Part shown: in pieces, positions 24,961-63,880 of the stretch
Layout of the letters: each line of letters begins with the position of its first letter
Position numbering within the stretch: position 1 is the first letter of the stretch
Assembly (NCBI RefSeq): GCF_000003815.2
Contig: NC_049994.1
Span: 8,196,316 to 8,260,315 of the forward strand
Source of the DNA: Branchiostoma floridae
Taxonomy: Eukaryota; Chordata; Leptocardii; Amphioxiformes; Branchiostomatidae
Direction of reading: 5' to 3'
DNA length: 64,000 nt
Notes under the pieces: generated by a model
What the model was told of the DNA's origin: nothing
Databases searched by the model: none
Seen by the model: the letters and a program-made list of their open reading frames with translations, nothing else
Translations under genes and position numbers: made by a program

Positions 24961-25017
24961 GTGGTGCGTTATGCGTCAATCTGTCGTTTGACCCATTGCA
25001 ACTTGTGATCAGATGTG

Positions 25018-25076
25018 TATCAGGTCTGTCACGTCTCACCTTTGACCCGTCAGAGAGCTGACTTCCGCCATTTTGC
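25018..25076 (+). promoter_or_regulatory. Shared zinc-finger promoter block, copy B
   Basis: TATCAGGTCTGTCACG, TCTCACCTTTGACCCG and GACTTCCGCCATTTTG. Homology with copy C extends about 55 bp upstream (GTTATGC and GTTTGACC). ACTTCCG also fits an ETS half-site next to the YY1-like core. Confidence 0.6.
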
Positions 25077-25520: not shown

Positions 25521-25983
25521 CTTTAATACAATACTCTTACTAAAAGCGACGTAGTGGAACCTGAAACCATATTTTCTTGGCCTCTGTATAGAAACCCCCC
25601 AATCAAGACTTATCTTGCCCCCCCCCCCCGTTTAAAGTGATCTAAAATACAAGATTTGATCTACCCCATATTGTAAAATACGACCTCTTAAACCCAGCCC
25701 CACCTTTTTTTCTTTGGGACGGCCCAAATTTTTATCATTACAAATTGTGCCGTATCGCAAGCAATGCAATGTTGTTGTATCATCAAGGACCCCATAATTG
25801 TAACTACTAGTAACTGGAATTGACCATCAGAAATAAGGAAAAAGACTCTATTGGAATAACTGCAAAATACAGTTGTACTTCTTGGACAGAAAAAAAAAAA
25901 TCTGTAAAGTCTGATGCCCTTTTACTGTTTCTAAGTTATTAACTTATTTCTCCAATCAATATTTTCTTACCATGATTTTAGAG

Positions 25984-27279
25984 ATGGAGGAGTTCACATC
26001 TGTGCCTGCAATTCAAGAGCTTCATGCGGAACATACTGCCAATGAGACGCAAATCAAGGAGAAGGAGACAGGCCTGCAGCCGGAAACTTGTGATGTGAAC
26101 TTTCCCCAACCCGACAAAGAATCAACCTCACAGAAGAGCAAGGAGAGAAAATGCACTGGTAAGGAACCCTTCATGTGTGGAGAGTGTGGATACCAAACGG
26201 TTAGGAAGGACCACATACTCAGACATATGAGAACTCATACAGGAGAAAGACCCTACAAATGTGATCAGTGTGACTATTCTGCTGGACGAAAATCCACATT
26301 GGACAGGCATCTTGCAAACCACGCCGGTGTGAAACCTTATGCATGTGGGGAATGTGGGTATAGGACAGCTAAAAAGGCCCACTTATCCCAGCATATGAGA
26401 AGCCATACAGGTGAAAAACCTTATAGATGTGACCATTGTGACTATTCTGCTACCAATAAACGCACTTTGTGCATGCATATACAATCAAAACATACCGATG
26501 AGAAACCCTTCATGTGTGGAGAGTGCGGGTACAGAACCAATCAGAAGTGTCACTTAGCTGTACACATGAGGATCCATACTGGAGAAAAACCCTACAAGTG
26601 TGACCAATGTGACTATTCTGCTGCTGTAAAATGTACTTTAGACCTACACCTCGCAAATCACACTGATAAGAAGCCCTACATGTGTGGGGCATGTGGGTAC
26701 AGGACGGTTACAAAGTACAAGTTATCCCAACACACAAGAACGCATACAGGAAATAAACAATACAAGTGTGACCAATGCGACTATTCTGCAAAGGCAAAAT
26801 TTACTTTAGACCAACATCGAGCAAAACACACTGGTGAGAAACCTTACATGTGTGGGAAATGTGAGTACAGAACAAGTCATAGAGGTCATTTGATAAGCCA
26901 TATGAATACCCATACAGGAGAAAAACCCTACAAGTGTGACCGTTGTGATTATTCTGCAGCACGGAAATCGCAGTTGGACATCCATCTAGCAAAACACACT
27001 GGTGAAAAACGTTATATGTGTGAGATTTGTGGACATAGAACAGCAGACAAGATTTGCCTTACCCTACACATAAGAACTCATACAGGAGAAAAACCCCACA
27101 AGTGTGACCAGTGTGATTATTCTGCGGCACAGAAATGTTCTTTGCGAAAGCATATAGCAAAACACACTGGTGAGAAACCCTACATGTGTGAGAGGTGTGG
27201 GTTCAGAACAGCGAGAAAGTCTACTTTATTCCAACATATGAAAATCCATACAGACACGGGAGAAAAACTACAGGTGTGA
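25984..27279 (+). CDS. C2H2 zinc-finger gene B, 13 fingers
   Basis: 431 residues in one coding exon; the acceptor TTTTAG ends at 25981 and the ATG is two bases into the exon (an ATG at 25972 lies before the acceptor and is not used). Residues 1-60 share MxxFTS, ELHAE, ETG and NFPQPD with gene C. Then come 13 consecutive intact C2H2 fingers that alternate strictly: odd fingers are CGECGYRT-like, even fingers CDQCDYSA-like, joined by HTGEKP linkers, so the evolutionary unit is a 56-residue pair. After finger 13 the frame ends at HTDTGEKLQV. The next bases (TACAGGTGTGACCAGTGTGAC) still spell the start of a DYSA finger in another frame, showing a 2-base loss. A nuclear DNA-binding regulator is inferred; there is no KRAB, SCAN or BTB domain. 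Confidence 0.93.
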   Translation: MEEFTSVPAIQELHAEHTANETQIKEKETGLQPETCDVNFPQPDKESTSQKSKERKCTGKEPFMCGECGYQTVRKDHILRHMRTHTGERPYKCDQCDYSAGRKSTLDRHLANHAGVKPYACGECGYRTAKKAHLSQHMRSHTGEKPYRCDHCDYSATNKRTLCMHIQSKHTDEKPFMCGECGYRTNQKCHLAVHMRIHTGEKPYKCDQCDYSAAVKCTLDLHLANHTDKKPYMCGACGYRTVTKYKLSQHTRTHTGNKQYKCDQCDYSAKAKFTLDQHRAKHTGEKPYMCGKCEYRTSHRGHLISHMNTHTGEKPYKCDRCDYSAARKSQLDIHLAKHTGEKRYMCEICGHRTADKICLTLHIRTHTGEKPHKCDQCDYSAAQKCSLRKHIAKHTGEKPYMCERCGFRTARKSTLFQHMKIHTDTGEKLQV

Positions 27280-27411: not shown

Positions 27412-28278
27412 AAAAATACCTTATACTGTACATGTACAGATGTATGTGGTAGTTTTTACACTTAATATAGTTGCTCTACTTAAGCAATACTTAATTGTTT
27501 TTAATTTCTGTAAACATATAGACCACCTTTCCTTTTTTAAACTTCACTGTGGAAACGTTTTTTTTATTTGAACCTTTATATATTCATGATAGCTCCAATC
27601 GGCTAACAGGCCGCTTTTGTGAACATAAGACTCTCTCATAATTAGGAATAGTTAGGAATATTCAGAATAAAAAATGAGTGTTTCCAACCAGTAGAAACTC
27701 TGTGCGATCCTGAAGATCAAGTGGCAATATTGGAAAGAATTTCCCAAACATTATAGCATTGAATAATGATGTATGCTGCATCGTTAGATTGTGCATGAAA
27801 AGTATGTATGGATAATAAACTATTCTTGCAAAGTCCATGTGTTGGATCTGTACGCATTTGTGGCAAAATGCAAACATATTCAGGGTCATATTTTGCATCG
27901 AGTCCACGCTCTTATTAAGTCCACCCCAGTGGAATACAACATAGTATACAACATAGATCTCAGTGGCTTGGTTATATAGCGGCGTGTCCGCAGGCATAAA
28001 GGTCACGCACTTAAAGTTCACACCTGCAAAGTTCGCCCCAGTAAAGGGACCCTACAGCTTAGTTAGCGTAGGTCAAATACTTAGTATCTGGAGTCGGCCC
28101 GACCAAGAATGGAAATTCTATTAATTTCTTTGTCTGTTCAGCACGCATAGCCAGGGCTGCCAAAATGTAGCTTGTGGTACAAAGGGCTAACACTACTGAT
28201 AGTTTTGACTTTTCAGCTCAAAACCTGAGGAGTTAATCGTTATGCTGCAATCCGTTGTTTGACCTATTTTCAGCAGTG
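27412..28278. other. Intergenic; dispersed repeat copy near 27570-27650
   Basis: The segment around TTTGAACC...TATTCATGA, AATCGGC and AGG-CCGCTTTT recurs at 41143-41225. It is probably the end of an unclassified retroelement. No gene seen. Confidence 0.45.
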
Positions 28279-28338
28279 TATCAGGTTTGCTACCTATGAC
28301 CTTTGCCCCGGCGTTTAGCTGACCTGGTAGCCATTTTG
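28279..28338 (+). promoter_or_regulatory. Shared zinc-finger promoter block, copy C
   Basis: TATCAGGTTTGCTACC, TATGACCTTTGCCCCG and GGTAGCCATTTTG in the same order as copies A and B. The YY1-like core is weaker here because CCG is replaced by AGC. Confidence 0.55.
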
Positions 28339-28425: not shown

Positions 28426-28519
28426 GTAAGACATATGATTATCGTTACTGCTTCCTAAGTTATGTGTTTGCTGTCGATTCATGAGGAGGGGGCTTTGGGC
28501 AAGTCTACGAAAACCTCGC

Positions 28520-29075
28520 CTTCCGCACTGGTGTTCCAGTGCTGATTGAATTGTCTGAACGGCGTCAGCACTGGTTTTCCAGTGCTGAATGTTCGTCAGC
28601 ACTCGTTTTCCAGTGCTGAAGCCGGCGTTTCGAGTGCTGAAAGCGCGTCAGCACTGGTTTTCCAGTGCTGAAATTCTTTCAGCACTCGTTTTCCAGTGCT
28701 GAACTTCTGTCAGCACTCGTTTTCCAGTGCTGAACTTCTGTCAGCACTCGTTTTCCAGTGCTGAACTGCCGTCAGCACTCGGTTACCAGTGCTGAAATCC
28801 GGGGATATCGGGTCCGGGTCAGGTCAAAGGTCATTCAGCACTGGTTACCCAGTGCTGAAACTGCCGTCAGCACTGGAACCGAGTGCTGATATACAAAAAC
28901 CTCGCCTTCCGCACTGGATTTACCAGTGCTCGAGGACACTTCAGCACTGGAAAACCAGTGCTATGAAATCTTCAGCACTGGAAAACGAGTGCTGACGTAT
29001 TTAAAGGACTGGAACGATGTGCGAACCAGTGCTGGAAGGACGTCAGCACTGGAATCTCCCAGTGCTGAGAGGGGC
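28520..29075. repeat. Palindromic repeat array 1 (about 16 units)
   Basis: Each unit is roughly TCAGCACT-(6-9 nt)-AGTGCTGA at 30-36 bp spacing. The centres are polar: in most of the left part they read CACTCGTTTTCCAGTG or CACTGGTTTTCCAGTG; from about 28935 on they read CACTGGAAAACCAGTG or CACTGGAAAACGAGTG, the reverse complements. So the array is itself head-to-head. Two units (near 28625 and 29015) are degenerate. Confidence 0.9.
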
Positions 29076-29082
29076 ACAAGAC

Positions 29083-29460
29083 GTAAATTTGAAGGAAAAA
29101 TAAGTTATTTCGTGCAAGAAAATTGTAGTTGTGCTATCCATTCGTTATGTAATTGAATATATGTGTACTGTATAAGGGATATATATCATTTATAAAATGA
29201 ATGAATGGATGAATACCTTTGTTGCACATTTTTTTATAAAGTACTGATTGCAGTACTAATAAAAGGACGCAAATTCGAATCAAAGTTACTTCGTGCAAAG
29301 AAAACTCCGTGTAATGCTGTGTATTTTATTCGCTGTACATGTGTAATTGAAAGGTAGAGATATGTATATGTGTAAGAGGTGTATAAGGGATAGCTATCAA
29401 TAAGCAACTTTATTGTGTGATTGTGATAGATATAGCCCTTTCGCGAAAGATTTGGGGGGC
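29083..29460 (+). repeat. Duplicated spacer between the palindrome arrays
   Basis: GACGTAAATTTGAA...TTTCGTGCAAG...TAATTGAA (29083-29155) recurs as GACGCAAATTCGAA...CTTCGTGCAAAG...TAATTGAA (29269-29352), offset about 187 bp. A LINE-like tail (minus strand, CATTCATTC near 29200-29215) lies between them. Confidence 0.6.
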
Positions 29461-29711
29461 CCTGAAAAGGGCCGGGGTGCTGTGAGGCAGACTTCAGCCT
29501 GCCTCCTCGTTGTTGTTGTTGTCGCGATCGCGAGTATATTCCATTATCCCCGAAGGTGATCGACAAATGAACACTGTGCACACTGTTATAGAGGCGTTAT
29601 AGAGCAGAATATAACGATAGGTGACGTTTATAACCCAGCAATGTCTTAAGTTTTAGTAGTAGAGCATAGGACGTATCGTAATTCCAAATTACTGTATATC
29701 TTAGTCTCCCG

Positions 29712-29988
29712 ATCTCTCAGCACTCGGTTTCCAATGCTGAATGTTCGTCAGCACTCGTTTTCCAGTGCTGAATGTTCGTCAGCACTCGGTTTCCAGTGCT
29801 GAATGTTCGTCAGCACTCGGTTTCCAGTGCTGAATGTTCGTCAGCACTCGGTTTCCAGTGCTGAAGCCGGCGTTTCGAGTGCTGAAAGCGCGTCAGCACT
29901 GGTTTTCCAGTGCTGACGAACATTCAGCACTGGAAATCCAGTGCTGATGCCATCTTCAGCACTGGGTTCCAGTGCTGAAAAAGGAGGG
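29712..29988. repeat. Palindromic repeat array 2 (about 9 units)
   Basis: Same unit as array 1. The first five copies are nearly identical with spacer AATGTTCG; polarity flips near 29920, where CGAACATTCAGCACTGG is the reverse complement of the earlier junction. The AAGCCGGCGTTTCGAGTG tract is shared exactly with array 1 (28619), so one array was copied from the other. One more half-degenerate unit sits at 30153-30173 next to the outer arm. Confidence 0.9.
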
Positions 29989-30389
29989 CGAGGTTTTCGT
30001 AGTTTTGCGGGCTTTGGAACCGCGATGCAGAGTTATGTAGTGTACCTTAGGTCACAGCATGTAAATTTTATGACATTCACCCCCTCGTTATTTTCGGAGA
30101 AACAAAAACAAGACTTTTTCTGCTTTGGAGATGGTGAACATGACCATTGTTTTCAGCACTCGGTTCCAGTGCGGAAGGTGAAGCTTTCGTAGACTTGCAC
30201 GAAAATTACCAAAATGGGCATATATCCTGTGTTGTAGCGTACTAACGTAATGATTGTACTTGTAGAAGTGACAGAGGTTACGACTGTAGTTGTAGAAGTG
30301 TTAGATAGTTGGGTAGCTGTAAAAGTGACACCACTAGTTGGATAGTAACGTAAAAGTGTCACCGCTAATGCACTATGGATGCCATGAGT

Positions 30390-30570
30390 GTATACGTCGT
30401 AGTTACCAACTTTGTTGGTGATACCAGTCTACCACACTAGTGCCACTTTTACTACTATGGTGCCTATTCTTAAAATGTAGCCATCTTGTTTTGTTGTACT
30501 CGTCTTGTTTTCTTTCGCCCTATTGCACTATTTTTGCCGTGTAAAGAGGATGTAATCAATAAATTTACAT
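30390..30570 (+). repeat. Segment duplicated at 38440-38665
   Basis: Both contain CAGTCTACCACAC followed by a GTG-C-A tract and, about 150 bp later, AGAGGATGT-ATC-ATAA. One copy lies on each side of the gene C coding exon, which suggests a duplication that bracketed it. Diverged. Confidence 0.5.
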
Positions 30571-30892
30571 ACTGTCCGAAACAAATATTAGTGAGGTACA
30601 CAGGCAGGTACAGGTCCTGCATCTGTACTTTTAAAAAAGCAAGTTTAATCAAGGAGTTCTTGAAAGCTCCTTAGTTTAATTGCCAATTATTAACATCTTG
30701 AAATATGCCTTTAGAAATGGTGCAGAAATTGCGGGCAACATTGCTGTATCCTGTAGAGAATATTAAGAAACCTGGAAAAATCTCTCAGACATTAAAAGAG
30801 GCCATATTCAGACAGAAGAATATATCTAAAATCTGCGCCATTTTCTTTTTAATAAAAATATCATCCGACCAATATTTTTTACAATATTAGGG

Positions 30893-33800
30893 ATGGCGAA
30901 GTTCACATCAAGATCTCCCGTGAAAGAGCTCCATGCAGAACAAACTGTGAACGAGGTGTACATCAAAGAGGAGGAGACAGGAGGCACTAGATGGCAACAG
31001 AATGAACTAGGCAATGCGCTGCATCACGAAATGTACAGTGAAGGCTTCTTTGGCGAAACCCAACGTACCGAACACCCTTGGAACAAGACAGACAACAGTT
31101 GGGGACAGACACCTGAAACGGCACGGCAGCAGGATAAGGAAAGGGACGTTCCCAATGACAGATTTTGTAGTGTAAAAGCAGAAATAGGAGAATCCAGCTG
31201 TGGTCTTTCTGATGGAAAACTCTACACTCTACACTCTACACATTCTGAAAAAGACATAGACCATTCTGGGAATGACTATGAGAAACCCTACATGTGTGGG
31301 GAGTGTGGATACAGGACAGACAGGGAGTCCCACTTATCGCAACACACGAGAACACACACAGGGGAAAAGCCATTCAAGTGTGACCAGTGTGACTATTCTG
31401 CAAGACTCAAATCTACTTTGGTCAAACATATAAGAACGCACACTGGTGAAAAACCCTACATGTGCGGAGAGTGTGGGTACAGGGCGGCTCAAATGTCTTC
31501 CTTATCCAAACATATGACGACCCATACAGGAGATAAACCCTACAAGTGTGACCAGTGTAGCTTTTCTTCAACGCTAAAATGTCATTTGAACAAACATATA
31601 GCAAAACACACAAGAGACACTGGATGGCAACAGAATGAACAAGACAATGTGCAGTACCAGGAAACATACAATGAAGACTTCTGCGGTGGCACTCAACCTA
31701 TGGGACATCCTTTGAACGACACAGACAACAGTTGGGGACAGGCACCTGGGACGGAACTGCAACATGACAATGAAATGGACGATCCCAATGACAAAGTGTG
31801 TGGTGTAAAAGCAGAAATGGGAGAGTCCAGCTGTGAGCTTTCTGATGGAGAACTCTGTACTGGGCATTCTGGGAATGATATGGACCCTTTTTGGTATGAC
31901 AAACCCTACATGTGTGGGGAGTGTGGATACAGGACAGACAGGGAGTCCCACTTATCCCAACACATGAGAACACACACAGGAGAGAAACCATTCAAGTGTG
32001 ACCAGTGTGACTATTCTGCTGCAGTCAAATCCACTTTGGTCAGTCATCTAAGAACGCACACCGGCGAGAAACCCTACATGTGTGGAGAGTGTGGGTTCAT
32101 GGCGGCTCAAAAGTCTTCCTTATCCAAACATATGACGACCCATACAGGAGATAAACCCTATAAGTGTGACCAGTGTAGCTTTTTTTCAACGCGAAAATAT
32201 CATTTGAACCAACATAAAGCAAAACACACAAGAGACACTGGATGGCAACAGAATGAACAAGACAATGTGCTGTACCAGAAAACATACAATGAAGACTTCT
32301 GCGGTGGCACTCAACCTATCGGACATTCTTTTAACGACACAGACAACAGTTTGGGACAGACACAAGGAGCGGAACTGCAACAGGACAATGAAATGGACGA
32401 TCCCAATGACAAAGTGTGTAATGTAAAAGCAGAAATAGGAGAGTCCAGCTGTGAGCTTTCTGATGGAGAGCTACATACTGGACATTCTGGAAATGAACAT
32501 ATAGCAAAACACACAAGAAGCACTGGATGGCAACAGAATGAACAAGACAACGTGCTGTGCCACGAAACGTACAACGAAGACTTCTTTGCGAGAACCCAAC
32601 CAAATAGACATCCTTTAGACAAGACAGACAACAGTTGGGGACAGAACTCAGGAATGTCACTGCAACAGGATGAGGAAAAGGACAATCCCAATGTAAAAGT
32701 TTATAGTGTAAAAGAAGAAATAGGAGAGTCCAGCTGTGAGCTTTCTGTTGGAGAACTCTGTACTGGACATTCTGGAAAAGACATGGACCATCCTGGGTAT
32801 CCCGGGAAGAAGATGGACTGTACAGAACACTTTGGGAAGGAGAGTGACAACGTGGCACAGAAATCATATAATGTGAACTTTCCTCAACCTAACAGCATAT
32901 CAACCTCCCTGGTACAGGAGAGCAGAGGCAATATGGGAAGACATGTGGTTAAACATTCTAATGAAAAACCATTCGCTTGTAAAGAGTGTCCGTACAGCAC
33001 ATATGGAAAGTCTGACTTATCCCGACACATGAGAACCCATACAGGAGAGAAACCATACAAGTGTGACCAGTGCGACTATTCTGCTGCAGTCAAATCTACT
33101 TTGGTCAAACATCTAAGAACGCACACAGGTGAAAAACCCTACATGTGCGGAGAGTGTGGGTACAGGACGGCTCAAATGTCTTGCTTATCCAAACATATGA
33201 GGACTCATACAGGGGATAAACCCTACAAGTGTGACCAGTGTAGCTATTCTGCAGTGCAAAAATCTCATTTGGACGAACATATATTAGCAAAACACACAAG
33301 AGACACTGGAAGGCAACAGAATGAACAAGACAACGTGCTGTGCCATTCATACAGTGAAGACTTCTTCGACGGAATTCAACCAGCCGGACATCCTTTAAAC
33401 GTGACAGACAACAATTGGGGACAGGCACGAGGAACGACACGACAACGGGGCGAAGAAAGGGACGTTCCCAATGACAAAGTGTGTGCTGTAAAAGTAGAAA
33501 TGGGAGAGTCCAGTTGTGAGCCCTTTGTTGGAGAACTACATACTGGACATTCTGCGAAAGACATGGACCATCCTGTGTATCCCGGGGAGGAGATGGACTG
33601 TACTGAACACCCTGGGAAGGAGAGTGACAGCCTGCAACAGAAAACGTATAATGTGAACTTTCCCCAACCTGACAGCATATCAACCTCGCGGGTACAGAAC
33701 ACAGGTAATATGGGAAGGCATGTGGTTAAACACCTTGATGAGAAACCATTCGCTTGTAAAGAGTGTCCGTACAGCACGTATGGAAAGTCCCAATTAACGC

Positions 33801-36800
33801 AACACATGAGAACCCACACAGGGGAAAAACCATTCAAGTGTGACCAGTGTGGCTATTCTGCTGCAATCAAATCTACTTTGGTCAAACATTTAAGAACGCA
33901 CACTGGTGAGAAACCCTACATGTGCGGAGAGTGTGGATACAGGGCGGCTCAAATGTCTTCCTTATCCAAACATATGACGACCCATATAGGAGATAAACCT
34001 TACAAGTGTGACCAGTGTAGCTTTTCTTCAACGCTAAAATGTCATTTGAACAAACATATAGCAAAACACACAGGAGACACTGGATGGCAACAGAATGAAC
34101 AAGACAATGTGCTGTACCAGGAAACATACAATGAAGACTTCTGCGGTGGAACTCAACCGACTGGACATCCTTTGAACGACACAGACAACAGTTGGGGACA
34201 GGCACCAGGGACGAAACTGCAAGAGGACAATGAAATGGACATTCCCAATGACAAAGTGTGTGGTGAAAACGCAGAAAAGGGGGAATCCAGCTGTGAGGTT
34301 TCTGATGGAGAACTCTGTACTGGGCATTCTGGGAATGATATGGACCCTTTTTGGTATGACAGACCCTACATGTGTGGGGAGTGTGGATACAGGACAGGCA
34401 GGGAGTCCCACTTATCCCAACACATGAGAACACACACAGGAGAGAAACCATTCAAGTGTGACCAGTGTGACTATTCTGCTGCAGTCAAATCCACTTTGGT
34501 CAGTCATCTAAGAACGCACACTGGCGAGAAACCCTACATGTGCGGAGAGTGTGGGTTCAGGGCGGCTCAAAAGTCTTCCTTATCCAAACATATGAGGACT
34601 CATACAGGGGATAAACCCTACAAATGTGACCAGGGTAGGTATTCTGCAATACAAAAATCTCATTTGGACCAACATATAGCAAAACACAGAGGAGACACTG
34701 GATGGCAACAGAATGAACAAGACAACGTGCTGTGCCAGGGAATATACAGTAAAGACATTTTCGTTGGAACTGAACCACCCGAGCATCCTTTAAACATGAC
34801 AGACAACAGTTGGGGACAGGCACCAGGAACGACACGCCAACAGAAGGAGGAAAGGGACGTTCCCAATGACAAAGTGTGTGGTGTAAAAGTAGACATGGGA
34901 GAATCCAGTTGTGAGCTTTCTGTTGGAGACTTCTGTACTGGAGATTCTATGAGTAACATGGACCCTCCTGGGTATTCCGGGGAGGCGATTGACTGTACTG
35001 AACACTTTGGAACGGAGAGTGACAACGTGGCACAGCAATCATATAATGTGAACTTTCCTCAAGCTGACAGCATATCAACCTCACAGGTACAGGAGAGCAG
35101 AGGCAATATGGGAACGCATGTGGTTACACACACTAATGAAAAACCATTCGCTTGTAAAGTGTGTCCGTACAGCACATATGGAAAGTCTGACTTATCCCGA
35201 CACATGAGAACCCATACAGGACAGAAACCATACAAGTGTGACCAGTGTGACTATTCTGCTGCAGTCAAATCCACTTTGGTCTGGCATCTAAGAACGCACA
35301 CAGGTGTGAAATCCTACAAGTGTGACCAGTGTAGGTATTCTGCAGTGCAAAAATCTCATTTGGACGAACATATATTAGCAAATCACACAAGAGACACTGG
35401 AATGACACAGAATGAACAAGACAACGTGCTGTGTCATGGAACATACAGTGAAGACTTCTTCGACGGAATTCAACCAGCCGGACATCCTTTAAACGTGACA
35501 GACAACAATTGGGGACAGGCACGAGGAACGACACGCCAACGGGGCGAGGAAAGGGACGTTCCCAATGACAAAGTGTGTGCTGTAAAAGTAGAAATGGGAG
35601 AGTCCAGTTGTGAGCCCTTTGTTGGAGAACTACATACTGGACATTCTGCGAAAGACATGGACCATCCTGTGTATCCCGGGGAGGAGATGGACTGTACTGA
35701 ACACCCTGGGAAGGAGAGTGACAGCCTGCAACAGAAAACGTATAATGTGAACTTTCCCCAACCTGACAGCATATCAACCTCGCGGGTACAGAACACAGGT
35801 AATATGGGAAGGCATGTGGTTAAACACCTTGATGAGAAACCATTCGCTTGTAAAGAGTGTCCGTACAGCACGTATGGAAAGTCCCAATTAACGCAACACA
35901 TGAGAACCCACACAGGGGAAAAACCATTCAAGTGTGACCAGTGTGGCTATTCTGCTGCAGTCAAATCTACTTTGGTCAAACATCTAAGAACGCACACAGG
36001 TGAGAAACCCTACATGTGCGGAGAGTGTGGATACAGGGCGGCTCAAATGTCTTCCTTATCCAAACATATGACGACCCATACAGGAGATAAACCCTACAAG
36101 TGTGACCAGTGTAGCTTTTCTTCAACGCTAAAATGTCATTTGAGCCAACATATAGCAAATCACACTAGAGACACTGGATGGCAACAGAATGAACAAGACA
36201 ACGTGCTGTGCCAGGAAGCGTACAGTGAAGACTTCTTCAGGGGAACTCAACCGACCGGACATCCCTTGAACGACACAGACAACAGTTGGGGACAAACACA
36301 AGGAACGGCACGGCAACAGGACGAGGAAATGGACATTCCCAATGACAAAGTCTTTGGTGTAAAAACAGAAATGAGAGAGTCCAGCTGTGAGCTTTCTATT
36401 GGACAACTACATACTGGACATTCTGGGAAGGACTTGGACCATCCTGGGTATCCTGGGAAGGAGCCAGACTGTACTGTACACCTTGGGAATGAGAGTGACA
36501 ACCTACAGCAGAAAACGTGTGAAGTGAACTTTCCCCAACCTGACAACATAGCAACCTCACAGGTACAGGAGAGCAGAGGCAATATGGGATGGCATGTGGT
36601 TTTATTTAAACATTCTAATGAGAAACCATTCGCTTGTAAAGAGTGTCCGTACAGCACATATCTTAAGTCTGACTTATCCCGACATATGAGAACACATACA
36701 GGAGAGAAACCGTACAAGTGTGACCAGTGTGCCTATTCTGCTGCAGTCAAATCCTCTTTGGTCAAACATCTAAGAACGCACACTGGAGAGAAGCCCTACA

Positions 36801-36961
36801 TGTGCGGAGAGTGTGGATACAGGACGGCTCAAATGTCTTGCTTATCCAAACATATGAGGACTCATACAGGGGATAAACCCTACAGGTGTGACCAGTGTAG
36901 CTATTCTGCAACACGAAAATCTTATTTGGACAAACATAAAGTAAAACACACTGGTCAATAA
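30893..36961 (+). CDS. Giant modular C2H2 zinc-finger gene C (2022 aa, 31 fingers)
   Basis: A single coding exon after an ATATTAG acceptor (exon from 30891). The start is fixed by MAKFTS and ELHAEQ, shared with gene B. Eight finger clusters at about residues 130-241, 335-448, 691-804, 950-1062, 1155-1267, 1416-1502, 1648-1760 and 1909-2022 hold 4,4,4,4,4,3,4,4 fingers. They are separated by 85-240-residue acidic linkers built from the same words (TGWQQNEQDN, NEDFCGGTQP, WGQAPGT, DVPNDKVCGVK, GESSCELSDGEL, DHPGYPG, NVNFPQPDSISTS, NMGRHVVKH). Blocks starting at 33361 and 35455 are near-identical (offset 2094 nt), and another pair is offset by 2460 nt. The linker between clusters 2 and 3 is double, with a finger remnant (EHIAKHTR) at the join. 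The last finger of cluster 5 has CDQG instead of CDQC. A nuclear DNA-binding protein is inferred; no effector domain is recognised. Confidence 0.93.
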   Translation: MAKFTSRSPVKELHAEQTVNEVYIKEEETGGTRWQQNELGNALHHEMYSEGFFGETQRTEHPWNKTDNSWGQTPETARQQDKERDVPNDRFCSVKAEIGESSCGLSDGKLYTLHSTHSEKDIDHSGNDYEKPYMCGECGYRTDRESHLSQHTRTHTGEKPFKCDQCDYSARLKSTLVKHIRTHTGEKPYMCGECGYRAAQMSSLSKHMTTHTGDKPYKCDQCSFSSTLKCHLNKHIAKHTRDTGWQQNEQDNVQYQETYNEDFCGGTQPMGHPLNDTDNSWGQAPGTELQHDNEMDDPNDKVCGVKAEMGESSCELSDGELCTGHSGNDMDPFWYDKPYMCGECGYRTDRESHLSQHMRTHTGEKPFKCDQCDYSAAVKSTLVSHLRTHTGEKPYMCGECGFMAAQKSSLSKHMTTHTGDKPYKCDQCSFFSTRKYHLNQHKAKHTRDTGWQQNEQDNVLYQKTYNEDFCGGTQPIGHSFNDTDNSLGQTQGAELQQDNEMDDPNDKVCNVKAEIGESSCELSDGELHTGHSGNEHIAKHTRSTGWQQNEQDNVLCHETYNEDFFARTQPNRHPLDKTDNSWGQNSGMSLQQDEEKDNPNVKVYSVKEEIGESSCELSVGELCTGHSGKDMDHPGYPGKKMDCTEHFGKESDNVAQKSYNVNFPQPNSISTSLVQESRGNMGRHVVKHSNEKPFACKECPYSTYGKSDLSRHMRTHTGEKPYKCDQCDYSAAVKSTLVKHLRTHTGEKPYMCGECGYRTAQMSCLSKHMRTHTGDKPYKCDQCSYSAVQKSHLDEHILAKHTRDTGRQQNEQDNVLCHSYSEDFFDGIQPAGHPLNVTDNNWGQARGTTRQRGEERDVPNDKVCAVKVEMGESSCEPFVGELHTGHSAKDMDHPVYPGEEMDCTEHPGKESDSLQQKTYNVNFPQPDSISTSRVQNTGNMGRHVVKHLDEKPFACKECPYSTYGKSQLTQHMRTHTGEKPFKCDQCGYSAAIKSTLVKHLRTHTGEKPYMCGECGYRAAQMSSLSKHMTTHIGDKPYKCDQCSFSSTLKCHLNKHIAKHTGDTGWQQNEQDNVLYQETYNEDFCGGTQPTGHPLNDTDNSWGQAPGTKLQEDNEMDIPNDKVCGENAEKGESSCEVSDGELCTGHSGNDMDPFWYDRPYMCGECGYRTGRESHLSQHMRTHTGEKPFKCDQCDYSAAVKSTLVSHLRTHTGEKPYMCGECGFRAAQKSSLSKHMRTHTGDKPYKCDQGRYSAIQKSHLDQHIAKHRGDTGWQQNEQDNVLCQGIYSKDIFVGTEPPEHPLNMTDNSWGQAPGTTRQQKEERDVPNDKVCGVKVDMGESSCELSVGDFCTGDSMSNMDPPGYSGEAIDCTEHFGTESDNVAQQSYNVNFPQADSISTSQVQESRGNMGTHVVTHTNEKPFACKVCPYSTYGKSDLSRHMRTHTGQKPYKCDQCDYSAAVKSTLVWHLRTHTGVKSYKCDQCRYSAVQKSHLDEHILANHTRDTGMTQNEQDNVLCHGTYSEDFFDGIQPAGHPLNVTDNNWGQARGTTRQRGEERDVPNDKVCAVKVEMGESSCEPFVGELHTGHSAKDMDHPVYPGEEMDCTEHPGKESDSLQQKTYNVNFPQPDSISTSRVQNTGNMGRHVVKHLDEKPFACKECPYSTYGKSQLTQHMRTHTGEKPFKCDQCGYSAAVKSTLVKHLRTHTGEKPYMCGECGYRAAQMSSLSKHMTTHTGDKPYKCDQCSFSSTLKCHLSQHIANHTRDTGWQQNEQDNVLCQEAYSEDFFRGTQPTGHPLNDTDNSWGQTQGTARQQDEEMDIPNDKVFGVKTEMRESSCELSIGQLHTGHSGKDLDHPGYPGKEPDCTVHLGNESDNLQQKTCEVNFPQPDNIATSQVQESRGNMGWHVVLFKHSNEKPFACKECPYSTYLKSDLSRHMRTHTGEKPYKCDQCAYSAAVKSSLVKHLRTHTGEKPYMCGECGYRTAQMSCLSKHMRTHTGDKPYRCDQCSYSATRKSYLDKHKVKHTGQ

Positions 36962-37095: not shown

Positions 37096-38139
37096 TTTAA
37101 AAGGCATCAGTCAGTGAACATAGTGATATGCCAAGCCTTTTTTCGGTCTTACATGGCTTGATCTTACCAAGAATTAGGTGTGATGCGCTTCAGATGGTTT
37201 GGCGGTTAAATGATACAAATCAATGGGGAATTCAATTAAACAAGATGTGAAAAAAATATGTAGCAATGTTTGGTTTATGTACTATTCAAGCTATTCAAAC
37301 AATCGTCGGTAGATGTCGTTGTTGTCTTCATCACGGTCACCCACGACAAACGTGTTCTCGCATTGAAGGAAATAGATAACTAAGTATGTAATAGAAGTAA
37401 TGATCATTCAGTAGCGCCCCCTATCGATGCACTGAAATAGTGCTTTTTATCAATCAACAATTTAATCTCTTATAGTTAACCATCTGTTTAGAGAAAACAC
37501 CATGGGGCGCCCGGGCATACCGCACTACATGTACGTTAATTGTATTACGACTGTTTAAATACATTATTTTTTACTTCAACAGGGCTTTAATTTAAAAAAT
37601 GGAAGATTTTACAAACTGAATATCACAGACCTAATGAATACATGATTGCACTTGCATTAAATGATATACATGTATCACATACAACATACATACAACATAC
37701 ACACATACATACATACATACATACATACATACATACATACATACTTACATACAAACATAAACACAACCACACATCTGCGTATATTTAAAGACATGTTCAT
37801 CACATATAAAAATGTGTCACCTCAATGTTGCATGACGTTTCGATAAACCTACATCACTTTGCCCTGTATGAGCGCCTAAACCCAATCTTTTTCCAAGGTT
37901 ATAAGACCTTTTACAAAAGTTCAAAGTACTTAAGATGTGTACTACCTCCATTAGCTGCGTAACATGATATCGTATCCAAAATGTCCCCGGGTGCGTCATT
38001 TATCTCCTAAGGCCACAGCAAGTATATTTTATGAATGACATCCACGCGCTCAGTAATTTTCTCCTGATTTCAGAATAATAATATTATAATAATAATCACC
38101 AGGTGTATATTGACAGCCAGTAGTTACCTAAATTATGAG
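37096..38139. other. Intergenic, with an ATAC microsatellite
   Basis: Contains a (CATA)n run at about 37672-37746. No gene recognised. Confidence 0.5.
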
Positions 38140-38408
38140 TAATGAGGCTGTTTAACGTGGTCGAGGCACCTCCTCAAGCACAGGACCCACGTTTTACGTC
38201 TCTTACGGCAGACAATTTCGTGGGACGCTTCGTGAGGCTACAGAAATCCGGTCGTCCTTCAGTTTATTTATTTTACCAGGAATACATCTCAAGTCAGCGT
38301 AGTCCTTGGTTGGGGGTCTTCCATCCAGGACTGTCCGGACCGCCCGTTGCTTAACTTTGAATTCCGAGATCGTGGGATCGGGTGTACCAACGCGCCACGC
38401 GGCCGTAG
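38140..38408 (-). mobile_element. 5S rRNA-derived SINE (SINE3-type), minus strand
   Basis: The minus strand from 38408 reads like 5S rRNA: CTACGGCC, then CACCCGATC, CGATCTCGGAA, AAGTTAAGCAACG (box A region) and GTCCTGGATGGAAGACC (box C region). It has small insertions and keeps the 5S order and spacing. About 120 nt of 5S-like head is followed by an unrelated body of about 150 nt with an AAATAAATAAA stretch. 5S-headed SINEs are known in deuterostomes; family assignment is inference. Confidence 0.7.
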
Positions 38409-39252
38409 CCAGAAAAAAGGATTTTTTGCCAAATTGATAGGTGGTGCCAGTCTACCACACAGGTGTCATGTTAACTACACTTGTGCACTTTTTAAATTAG
38501 TGGCTTGTTAGCTGTGGTGCCATATTTTGTCACTGCAACTCTTGTTATCTGTTTATTGTTTCTTCTTCAAAAATTCGACAGCTAGATCTTTTACGTATCT
38601 TTTTTTTGCGCTACCTCATGATTTTTTGCAGTCTACAGAGGATGTCATCCATAAGATTTACTTGCCGTGGCCTAGTGCTAAATACGCCGCCTACGTTCGG
38701 TGATGTCTGCCGATAACACAGCACGTCGCATGTTGACATTTCACCGCTCCACATGATAAGCGCTAAATCGTTTAACTCCACTGATGGTTCTTGGAAACTG
38801 CAATCATGTTCAAGGTTACATGATGTCACATACTGTAGATGCCCCCTATCGTGTTATATGTGTAATGCATAATTTAGATCTTATATTTTCACACTCCAGT
38901 TCATCAATCTGTTCTGTACATGTCTAGAGTCTCAAAAGTGTTATAACGGTGGGAAATTCACTTTACATTTCTATCTTATCTCCCATATGGATTCCAGGAC
39001 TACTCTTTTTTTCTGCTTCTATGGTGAACGCGCTTTTCATATTCCCATGCTTGTATATGCCTAGTCACTAACAGTGGTATGGTCTGGAATGACCATTTCT
39101 ATGTTTTCAATCACTTCTGGTAGGATAATCATTTTGACTTCAGATTAATCAAGCAGTCTTATCATTCACCATTGTAACTTGTTCTAAGACAAATTGTTTT
39201 CACACTCAAAATACATAGTATTACTTTTGCAGATTCTAGAGTAACGTAAATG
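38409..39252. other. Intergenic; no gene
   Basis: Holds the second copy of the 30390-30570 segment (38440-38665). Nothing else supported. Confidence 0.4.
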
Positions 39253-42834: not shown

Positions 42835-45483
42835 TTGTTTGCGGCTTTTAACTTAACACTCTGTGTAAACGTTTCCCATAAACACGAGTTATGATTTTCA
42901 TGTGCATTCTCAATTTTATTTTCATTGTCATATCGGGTGACTATAAGCGGTTACATAACGTTAAGATGAGTTTTACTTGTAAATGTATTGGCTGAGTTGA
43001 CCCGTTCATTCATGTCTTTGTAATTCTGCCGACAGGCGGAAACCTTGATAACAGCATCATCAGAAATTCTGCAATCAAGTATGATTCCGGCTGTGAATTC
43101 TCAAGGGCGTTTAGCTTGCAGACAATTTCTATCAGGCTTGGGACAGCAAAGAGGCATCTCTTGTTTGCGTTTACGGTTTTTAATTTTGCGGTTTTTAATT
43201 TTGACACTCTCTGTAAAAGTTTCACACAAACACGGGTTATGATTGTCATGTGCATTCTCAATGTTTATTCCCGTTGTCGTATGGGGTGACTATAAGCGGT
43301 TACATAACATTAAGATGAGTTTTACATGTAAATGCATTGGCTGAGTTGACCCATGCATTCATGTCTTTGTAATTCTGGCGACAGACGTAAACCTTGATAA
43401 CAGCATTATCAGAACTTCTGCAATCAAGTATGATTCTGACTGTTGATTCTCAAAGGCTTTTAGCTTGTAGACAATCAATTTCTATCAGGGTCCGGACAGC
43501 ACAGAGGCATCTCTTGTCTGCGGTTGTTAATTTTACATCCTTTGTAAAAGTTTCACATAAACACGAGTTGTGATTGTCATGTGCATTCTCAATGTTTATT
43601 CCCGTTGTCGTATCGGGAGACTATAAGCCGTTACATAACTTTAAGATGAGTTTTATATGTAAATGTATTGACTGAGTTGACCTGTGCATTCATGTCTTTG
43701 TCATGATTTTCATGTGTGGCCTAAATGTTTATTCCCGTTATCGTATCGGGTGACTATAAGCCGTTACATAACTTAAAGATGAGTTTTACATGTAAATGTA
43801 TTGACTGAGTTGACCTGTGTATTCATGTCTTTGTAATTCTGGCGACCGGCGGAAACCTTGATAACAGCATCATCAGCAATGCATCAGTCAAGTATGATTA
43901 CGGCTGCAGATGCTGCTGATTCTTAAGGGCTTTTAGCTTGTAGACAATCAATTTCTATCAGGTTCGGGACAGCAAAGAGGCATCTCTTGTCTGCGGTTGT
44001 TAATCTTACACTCTTTGTAAAAATTTCACATAAACACAAGTCATGACTTTCAAATGCGTCCTTAATGTTTATTTCCGTTGTCGTATCGGGTGACTATAAA
44101 CGGTTACATAACGTTAAGATGAGTTTTACATGTAAATGTATTGACTGAGTTGACCTCAGTGAATTCATGTCTTTGTCATAATTTTCATGTGTGTTCTAAA
44201 TGTTTATTAAAGTAGATTCCTTCATTTTAGACACATGAGTAGCACTGACAAGTTTATATTTCTCATGCGTTTTGACAAACCGACAATAGCGAAACCCATA
44301 CAGTCCTACATTTTCACTATTACCAAGAAGCGAGAAGAAGCCGAACTTTTGTGTTAGACTAGATTTGTGACACTTTTATGTATGTATATATCCTGATTTG
44401 TTGTGACCTGTACTTAGCCCGGTTGGGCAAATTGTACAATAAAGGTCTTCATTCATTCATTAAAATTGTCGTATCGGGTGCCTATAAGCGGTTACACAAC
44501 TTTAAGATGAGTTTTACTTGTAAATCTATTTGACTGAGTTGACCCATGCATTCATGTCTTTGTAATTCTGGCGACAGACGGAAACCTTGATAACAGCATC
44601 ATCAGAAATTCTGCAATCAAGTATGATTCCGGCTGCGAATTCTCAAGGGCGTTTAGCTTGTAGACAATTTCTATCAGGCTTGGGACAGCAAAGAGGCATC
44701 TCTCGTTTGCGGTTACGGTTTTTAATTTTGCGGTTTTTAATTTAAACTCTTTGTAAAAGTTTCAAATAAACACGAGTTATGATTGTCATGTGCATTCTCA
44801 ATGTTTATCCCCGTTGTCGTATCGGGTGACTATAAGCGGTTACATAACTTTAGATGAGTTTTACATGTAAATGCATTGACTGAGTTGACCCATGCATTCA
44901 TGTCTTTGTAATTCTGTCAACAGGCGGAAACCTTGATAACAGCATTATCAGAACTTCTGCAATCAAGCATGATTCCGGCTGTTGATTCTCAAGGGCTTTT
45001 AGCTTGTAGACAATCAATTTCTATCAGGGTCCGGACAGCAAAGAGGCATCTCTTGTTTGCGGTTGTTAATTTTACACTCTTTGTAAAAGTTTCATATAAA
45101 CACGAGTCATGATTTTCATGTGTGTTCTAAATGTTTATTTTCATTGTCGTATCGGGTGACTATAAGCGATTACATAACTTAAAGATGAGTTTTACATGTA
45201 AATGTATTTGACTGAGTTGACCTGTGGATTCATGTCTTTGTCATGTGTGTTCTAAATGTTTATTTCCATTGTTGTATTGGGAGACTATAAGCGGTTATAC
45301 AACTTTAAGATGAGTTTTACATGTACATGCATTGGCTGAGTACAGCCTTGCATTCATGTCTATGTACTTCTGGCGACAGACGGAAACCTTGATACCAGCA
45401 TCATCAGCCATTCTTCAATCAAGTTGATTCTCACGGGCTTTTAGCTTGTAGACAACCAATTTCTCTCAGGCTTGGTGTAGCAA
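42835..45483 (+). repeat. Satellite, about nine copies of a ~340-bp unit
   Basis: The word GACTATAAGC-GTTACATAAC recurs near 42945, 43290, 43620, 43752, 44095, 44480, 44830, 45160 and 45285. Full spacing is 328-350 bp; two intervals of 125-133 bp are internally deleted units. Each full unit also has GAAACCTTGATAACAGCAT and TTTAGCTTGTAGACAAT. One interval is enlarged by a LINE tail insertion. No open frame is conserved across units. Confidence 0.9.
44207..44462 (+). mobile_element. 3' end of an L2/CR1-like LINE inside the satellite
   Basis: About 255 bp interrupts a satellite unit. It ends TTGTACAATAAAGGTC followed by TTCATTCATTCATT, the tail form of L2-like elements. ATTAAA occurs at both junctions and may be the target duplication. 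Confidence 0.7.
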
Positions 45484-62455: not shown

Positions 62456-63880
62456 TTTTTTAAATTTTTATTGGGTTTTCAAATAAACAAAGACAAACAA
62501 CAAAATGACAGCAAAAAATAACAAAAGTCATTTCAATATAGCCATAACAATAATGAACTTAGATTCAAAAAATAATATGAGATACTGTAACAGTAATTAA
62601 CTTAGATTCAATAGTGATATAACAGATCTCAAACCATAACAATAATGAACTTAGATTCAAAAGTAATATAACTGAGAACTCAAACCATAACAATGATGAA
62701 CTTAGATTCAAAAGTAATATAACTGAGATCTCAAACCATAACAATAATGAACTTAGATTCAAAAGTAATATAACTGAGAACTCAAACCATAACAATGATG
62801 AACTTAGATTCAAAAGTAATATAACTGAGAACTCAAACCATAACAATAATGAACTTAGATTCAAAAGTAATATCTCAGATCTCAAACCATAACAATAATG
62901 AACTTAGATTTAAAAAATAATAATAATATAACTGAGATATCAAACCATAACAGTACTGAGCTTAGATTCAAGAATAATATAACTGAGATCTCAAATCATA
63001 ACAATAATGAACTTAGTTTCAAAAAAGGATATAGCTGAGATCTCAAACCATAACAATAATGAGCATAGATTTCAATGATAATATAACTGAGATCTCAAAC
63101 GATAACAATGATGAACTTAGATTTTAAAGAAAAGCAAACAATATAACTGAGATCTCAAACCATAACAATAAGGAACTTAGATTTATGTTTGACAATGCTT
63201 AACTGTAGGTTGATGGATACGATATCAGCTGCATAAGGAGCCCCACTTCCCCAGATGTTTATCCAGTTTGCCTTTTTTCAAGGCTACATAATATTCTACT
63301 TTATTAAAGAAATTAACGTAACGGAGAAAGGAGTCAAAGTTTAAGGTACTGGGTTTTCTACATATATATATATATATAGATTTTGGCTAGTAAAGTTATA
63401 AGGTTTTCAATCGGGGGAGTTCCAAAGTGTAGATTTCCAAAAATGATATTAAATCCATTCAATTTCAAATTTAGGGTTGTTTTACTGTGATACCAGTTTT
63501 TAATTTTGTCCCAAAAGGGGAATAAGTGTGGACATTCCCAGAAAACATGCAGGTAAGTTTCTTCTTCCTCATGGCAGAATGAGCATAATAAAGGGTTAAT
63601 GCCCCGGCCGGCATGATAAGGCGGGGCATTAACGTTATTATCATATAGCCTACACAAACTGACCCATTTAAGCAACAAATTCCTTTATAATACATACATC
63701 CTTTATTCAAGACTTCCAAGGCTTGACATAATGACAAATTCCCTTCTGCTGGGACAAGTGTGTTACCATTTAATCCTAAGTTATACTTGTACATATTCAA
63801 TAAATTTGAAAGAATGTGAACAGTAATAATGTTTGGATCAGAAGGCCCCGTTCCACGTTGGTTATGACGCCGTAACACGT
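62456..63880 (-). mobile_element. L1/Tx1-like LINE 3' part, minus strand
   Basis: 63358-63878 holds two overlapping frames: an upstream segment (LNMYKYNLGLNGN, LCQALEVLNKGCMYYKG) and a downstream one (AGRGINPLLCSFC, EEETYLHVFWECPHLFPFW). The CxxC...H-x4-C pattern is the zinc-binding module after the RT in L1/Tx1-type elements. A frameshift separates them. 62560-63190 is its 3' UTR minisatellite, and the minus strand ends CCCAATAAAAATTTAAAAAAA at 62456-62480, a polyadenylation signal and A-tail. The 5' side is truncated or diverges near 63880. Confidence 0.75.
62560..63190. repeat. ~55-bp minisatellite, about 11 units, in LINE 3' UTR
   Basis: Unit words: CTCAAACCATAACAATAATG, AACTTAGATTCAAAAGTAAT and ATAACTGAGA. 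The first units are near-identical; units after 62900 vary in length. The minus frame reading LLLNLSSLLLWFE repeatedly is an artefact. Confidence 0.9.

Follow-up and report, generated by a model that had tools for sequence, protein, structure and literature searches.

The window, i.e., the whole stretch of 64,000 nucleotides of Branchiostoma floridae DNA that was analysed, contains at 30893–36961 a zinc-finger frame of 2022 codons. Two stretches resemble neighbouring zinc-finger genes, the upstream exon (28238–28338, similar to 24967–25075) and the coding exon (30864–30981, similar to 25951–26072), and the splice letters are in place (donor GT at 28426–28427, acceptor AG at 30889–30890). We infer from these that the repetitive element described here sits inside the first intron of the zinc-finger gene, a placement already made by the original prediction and now supported by the paralogue exons and the GT/AG letters. 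The features of the locus are as follows:

28426–30890, + strand: predicted intron 1 of the zinc-finger gene (frame 30893–36961), from paralogue alignments, splice-site letters and Pfam zinc fingers
28490–28498, no strand: left target-site duplication GGGCTTTGG, identical to 30009–30017
28499–28520, + strand: left terminal repeat (L head) GCAAGTCTACGAAAACCTCGCC, with at least 33 exact places in the genome including this one
28522–29068, no strand: array 1, 14 palindromic units and 2 half-sites, mostly of 31-bp period
28896–28917, + strand: internal 22-bp sequence repeating exactly the inner part of the L head plus the first half-site
29069–29716, no strand: middle region, 38% GC
29717–29978, no strand: array 2, 8 palindromic units and 1 half-site
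29987–30008, – strand: right terminal repeat (R head), reading inward GCAAAACTACGAAAACCTCGCC, 20/22 with the L head, of a type that recurs in the family
30009–30017, no strand: right target-site duplication GGGCTTTGG
30153–30198, – strand (opposite orientation): separate fragment with one unit and an L-type head of a sister subfamily (GCAAGTCTACGAAAGCTTCACC)

Other repeats are found in the window. Three collinear blocks (74–85% identity) link 30045–30568 to 38006–38661 without spanning the insertion, and probably represent an older repeat or a duplicated stretch near zinc-finger genes. A 51-bp tandem repeat (11.4 copies) occupies 62588–63183, while 43239–44208 is a tandem duplication of 473 bp that includes a 133-bp repeat.

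Boundaries and architecture of the element

The element extends over 1510 bp (28499–30008) and ends in 22-bp terminal inverted repeats, L and R being identical at 20 of 22 positions. Directly outside both ends stands a perfect 9-bp target-site duplication (TSD), GGGCTTTGG, i.e., a 9/9 agreement that two random 9-mers of the window would reach with a probability of 1.5e-5. The family has two unequal ends (L: GCAAGTC; R: GCAAAAC). The right boundary had originally been set at 30198, with the arm ending there taken as the outer right arm of the element. This was a misplacement: the TSD flanks 28499–30008, the sequence flanking the 30198 arm agrees at 1/9 positions, and the arm itself belongs to an L-type fragment of the sister subfamily. 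The existence of two distinct family ends next to a sister L end explains the confusion. That the real element would run from 28499 to 30198, the 9-bp match at 30009 being fortuitous, is extremely improbable: its arm at 30185–30198 does match the left arm at 14/14 positions, but both arms would then be of L type, whereas the TSD-bearing pairs examined combine L with R, the flanks disagree, and the head at 30177–30198 is that of the sister subfamily. The lone sister end (30153–30198) starts 136 bp past the right TSD of the main element, and its flank, ACGAAAATT, is single-copy in the window, so that its partner end must have been lost or lie elsewhere. Two stretches containing CGTGCAA in the middle of the element (29111 and 29292) resemble the sequence immediately outside and across the 30198 end. 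In the middle region (29069–29716), a protein domain was looked for and none was found.

Both arrays are composed of palindromes of the form TCAGCACT-(5–10)-AGTGCTGA, of which the window holds 18 exact instances, versus 0 in 100 shuffles. With the diverged ones included, the count rises to 23 two-armed units, of which 14 belong to array 1, 8 to array 2 and one lies at 30153, plus three single half-sites, hence 49 half-sites, which agrees with the approximately 25 units in two arrays first announced. Units are 23–26 bp long, with core gaps of 7–10 bp (8 bp in 18 of the 23), and most neighbour spacings inside the arrays (14/20) amount to 31–32.5 bp, the other six being 42, 43, 52, 52, 63 and 72 bp. 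An exact 65-bp tract is common to arrays 1 and 2 (starting at 28607 and 29852, respectively), as had been predicted, and the spacer ATGTTCG occurs five times, plus once as its reverse complement. Recurring spacers and 65 shared identical bases make copying between the arrays well supported.

The original prediction also described inversion at three scales: unit, array and element. The palindromic units are real, while the arrays are only weakly inverted relative to each other, the alignment score of array 1 against array 2 being 251 in direct orientation and 148 in inverted orientation. Foldback elements have long inverted termini made up of tandem repeats; here, repeat arrays stand at both ends, with a true terminal inversion of about 22 bp. 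The arrays are thus not mirror images but mainly direct copies of each other, which makes the element foldback-like rather than a classic foldback.

A dispersed family with target-site duplications

The genome (513,431,437 bases in 431 contigs) was searched for the units and the heads. Exact units number at least 1552, versus 1 for a reversed-pattern control. The L head pattern is present in at least 63 places with up to two mismatches (at least 33 of them exact; control: 0) and the head of the sister subfamily in at least 98 places with up to one mismatch (control: 0). Thirty of the 33 exact L heads were retrieved together with flanks of about 1.5 kb per side. An R head is present within the retrieved sequence in 23 cases, and in 21 of these it starts exactly with GCAAAAC. 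Among these 23 L–R pairs, 17 are bounded by a perfect 9-bp TSD, three by one with 8/9 matches and one by a perfect 8-bp TSD (L042), while two have none (L019 and L024). The sister subfamily contributes six examined pairs, one of which lacks a TSD (L008), whereas all five long ones have a perfect 9-bp TSD. Taken together, the 29 head pairs yield 22 perfect 9-bp TSDs, three of 8/9, one perfect 8-bp TSD and three without any. When the flanks are fixed at 9 bp, 20 of the 23 pairs reach at least 8/9, versus 0 in 2000 shuffled pairings of the same 23, and all 22 perfect 9-mer duplications differ between sites. Given the abundance of units relative to the control and the TSD counts relative to the shuffles, we are dealing with a family of non-autonomous cut-and-paste transposons dispersed over the genome. 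The idea of a mobile element built from palindromic units, along with the search for the same arms elsewhere in the genome that had been proposed to check it, is therefore borne out. No empty site was seen within the window, where the neighbouring zinc-finger genes align only around exons.

The lengths of the 23 pairs range from 245 to 1510 bp (the upper end being limited by the approximately 1.5 kb fetched per side) and their unit numbers from 3 to 18. Blocks of the middle region longer than 80 bp are found in other copies at 77–98% identity, but four of the 22 other copies (L019, L021, L029 and L041) have no match to it, while keeping heads and arrays. Three of them (L021, L029 and L041) are hardly more than heads and arrays. 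Internally deleted copies as short as 245 bp still possess both, and the array-only copies of 405, 375 and 245 bp have TSDs of 9/9, 9/9 and 8/9, respectively.

Comparing copies also clarifies the polarity of the units, which had been said to reverse part-way through each array. In the window copy, core alignment scoring assigns minus polarity to 4 of 23 units, with one tie. At least two adjacent minus units recur in the left array, close to or at its inner end, in 18 of the 23 family copies. Owing to this recurrence, the switch in the left array must be inherited, and a polarity varying randomly from unit to unit, named beforehand as the outcome that would speak against the element, is ruled out.

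Some sister copies have received further sequence. One of them (L077), with exact heads and a perfect TSD, harbours between its heads a nested retroelement frame (RVT_1, 600 aa). Two others with perfect TSDs (L080, 7,725 bp, and L081+L082, 11,770 bp) are enlarged by inserts within an array, and the insert of the latter carries a Myb/SANT-like frame.

Putative role of the arrays and affiliation of the family

No transposase was recognised among the family copies and frames scanned. Within the window, Pfam returned none in the 10 frames scanned out of the 24 of at least 120 aa, nor in two further frames, and none in four stop-to-stop frames taken from the element and from the flank on its right, for which the sole line was P35 (E = 0.11), below the cut-off. 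Of the seven exact L heads without an R head nearby, four were followed 4.9 kb further, and no R end was met within six mismatches over that distance, the stretch of L022 being largely N. Beyond L020 and L030, a 9-mer at most one mismatch away from the left flank appears 4116 and 3656 bp on, respectively, without a recognisable end. The three frames scanned beyond the followed heads matched no Pfam family; a further one, of 427 aa, lies beyond L030. The five long sister copies (L077, L078, L079, L080 and L081+L082) had no transposase domain in the frames scanned: one frame of L078 matched no family, L079 is mostly N, and ten frames of L080 and L081+L082 gave a single domain above the cut-off, the Myb/SANT-like one of L081+L082. 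The MULE domain PF10551 has 27 matches in the genome, 13 of which lie in frames longer than 250 aa without internal stop. The 20 PF10551 loci that were fetched out of these 27 (L043–L062) show neither head nor unit within about 1.5 kb, two of them having a single half-site 8-mer, and tblastn of the longest frame of each fetched locus against 58 family loci gave no match. Finally, Rfam found nothing in the window at gathering scores, and no match was obtained for the unit and head patterns in viral contigs or for the unit in contigs of prokaryote genomes.

As no transposase was recognised, the assignment to a superfamily depends on the length of the TSD and on the layout, by which the family appears most like Mutator/foldback elements. 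The TSDs of Mutator-like elements (MULEs) are 8–11 bp long according to the consulted part of a 2019 survey (PMC6446971), a range into which the perfect 9-bp duplications of 22 of the 29 pairs fall (shuffled control: 0). Here, the proper terminal inverted repeat (TIR) covers only about 22 bp, with repeat units beyond it; long TIRs are typical of MULEs, yet not universal. The Merlin superfamily was considered and rejected, its TIRs starting with GG in the available description (PMC8101967), against GCAA in the exact heads of both subfamilies.

Our preferred reading, which we regard as probable, is a DNA transposon of the cut-and-paste type that is non-autonomous and most likely mobilised in trans by a MULE transposase, for which the arrays would be the binding sites. 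Each 24-bp palindrome would be bound by a dimer, either of the transposase or of an accompanying DNA-binding protein encoded by the autonomous relative, and the 31-bp spacing, i.e., about three helical turns, would align the sites along the same side of the helix. Transposase or accessory protein would bind cooperatively along each arm, and the assembly of multimers along both arms could then lead to end pairing, cutting and reinsertion. The arrays themselves may expand, and one arm may be copied onto the other, through unequal exchange or conversion, to which their repeat structure lends itself; any hairpins formed by the intron transcript would be incidental. There is a precedent for the binding step, since the DNA-binding domain of the Galileo transposase binds sites in the tandem repeats of its long TIRs (PMC3688188). 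A bolder version, which we hold to be rather doubtful, is that a chordate transposon lineage has a putative transposase or accessory protein reading helically phased palindromic dimer sites of polarity fixed per arm, so that a filament-like, side-specific assembly would replace the long TIR; the ends would then be distinguished by their differing heads (L and R) and by the switch of polarity in the left array.

It is less likely, though possible, that the element is mobile but that its arrays escape or steer host silencing, in the manner of the VANC-bound repeats of VANDAL elements, or confer promoter activity, instead of assembling a transposase. The protein-bound noncoding tandem motifs of VANDAL elements expand, contract and diverge fast, as far as the excerpted text goes (PMC10398659), and the unit number of our family is likewise variable across its 23 copies. 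Against this, the arrays lie directly behind the heads at both ends and are retained in the smallest TSD-bearing copies, which is what would be expected of sites needed for transposition.

The half-sites bear on a second alternative, namely that the units are maintained as RNA hairpins of the intron transcript, either as a small-RNA precursor or as a target of A-to-I editing. Both arrays do fold far beyond their shuffles as RNA (z = –17.06 and –14.85), and the four single units tested form DNA hairpins of –6.5 to –11.3 kcal/mol. Nonetheless, this reading is quite unlikely, because the strong folding follows from the units being palindromes, because copies exist at many other sites, independently of this intron, and because compensatory change is absent: no stem pair out of ten is changed on both sides, and 7 of the 15 distinct units have a mismatch at pair 9–18. 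In the alignment of the 23 units, 13 columns are invariant, including most half-site columns, and six more are at least 90% alike. Moreover, the spacings shorter than 80 bp across the family fall for the most part (227 of 248) no more than 1.5 bp away from a whole multiple of 10.5 bp, although these spacings are not independent, owing to common ancestry, and 18 of the 27 distinct values are in phase. For the window copy, the five distinct spacings other than 31 bp give p ~0.002, in a test picked after seeing the spacings. The lack of compensatory change, the conserved half-sites and the spacing in multiples of about 10.5 bp are the grounds on which transposase-binding arrays appear to fit better than RNA hairpins.

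It is very improbable that the arrays are not transposon ends but a regulatory element of the host, to which a host factor would bind: the first-intron position and the half-site TGCTGA/TCAGCA, which we take to resemble a Maf-type half-site, speak for it, but the same arrays occur elsewhere at many sites, bounded by heads and TSDs.

With these results, a puzzling repeat becomes a transposon family with defined ends, target duplications and array-only minimal copies, and the role of repeat arrays at transposon ends becomes directly testable. If the MULE assignment is true, a foldback-like Mutator family is added in lancelet. In its accessible part, the 2019 survey reports limited evidence of MULEs in chordates and could not detect lancelet MULE transposases (PMC6446971), with which the 27 PF10551 matches in this genome contrast.

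Comparison with known systems

The original prediction knew of no described element of this exact form. This holds insofar as the literature searched, in the parts available, yielded no description of the element (Repbase and most subscription papers were outside its scope, and a Repbase entry is quite possible); repeat terms looked for in PMC5803294 were not found, and the portions seen of PMC2955051 and PMC5802833 name no such element. The general plan, however, is shared by Tm1 and Muta1 (see below). The comparisons that follow are with the available parts of the cited papers.

Two kinds of repeats can be set aside. A CRISPR array, which has unique spacers and belongs with cas genes in a prokaryotic genome, was rightly dismissed in the original prediction, the spacers here being repeated and the location being a zinc-finger gene intron. 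The 'mirage' minisatellites of amphioxus are tandem-duplicated exon–intron boundaries (PMC3087553), whereas our arrays lie inside the predicted intron and are bounded by TSDs. The SIRC cassettes of Arabidopsis, for which a MITE origin has been proposed, also associate CRISPR-like short repeats and spacers with miniature transposons, but they are plant direct repeats, about 57% of them without palindromes (PMC10342631).

Several transposons come closer. Rehavkus has in common the 9-bp TSD, but features a minisatellite before its 3' TIR and a PHD-finger transposase (PMC6446971), whereas our family has repeats at both ends and no PHD-finger transposase was seen. Galileo, of the P superfamily, resembles the proposed model by its several transposase-binding sites in terminal repeats (PMC3688188), yet differs by its superfamily and by the 7–8 bp TSDs of its D. 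willistoni copies (PMC4168063). Plant MULEs with tandem TIRs have an extra internal copy of their terminal sequence, like the one at 28896–28917, but their TIRs are long and palindrome arrays are not reported in the text consulted (PMC3310237). Tetris of Drosophila virilis is non-autonomous too, with 8–10 bp TSDs, terminal tandem repeats and a Mutator assignment made by TSD and layout only; in contrast, its repeats are 220 bp long and part of long true TIRs (PMC4079207).

The Mutator/foldback family Tm1 of root-knot nematodes shares TSDs of 8–10 bp (mostly 9 bp), differing outermost motifs at the two ends, a variable count of tandem motifs and non-coding copies, but its motif is 13–15 bp long and transposase-bearing copies are known (PMC3169594). 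Likewise, Muta1 and related MULEs of Aedes aegypti combine TSDs of 8–9 bp with a terminal motif, behind which come subterminal tandem repeats separated by short spacers. Further likenesses are that the terminal motif is imperfectly palindromic, that they belong to the type 2 foldback class, and that their many non-autonomous derivatives vary in repeat number. They differ by 12-bp repeats within a 145-bp TIR and by a known transposase (PMC5225508), whereas the amphioxus family has 24-bp palindromes at a 31-bp period, arrays that are mainly direct copies, and no transposase found. As far as the available descriptions of these named relatives go, the amphioxus family is distinguished from them by its palindromic dimer unit, by a phasing of 31 bp and by its direct-copy arrays.
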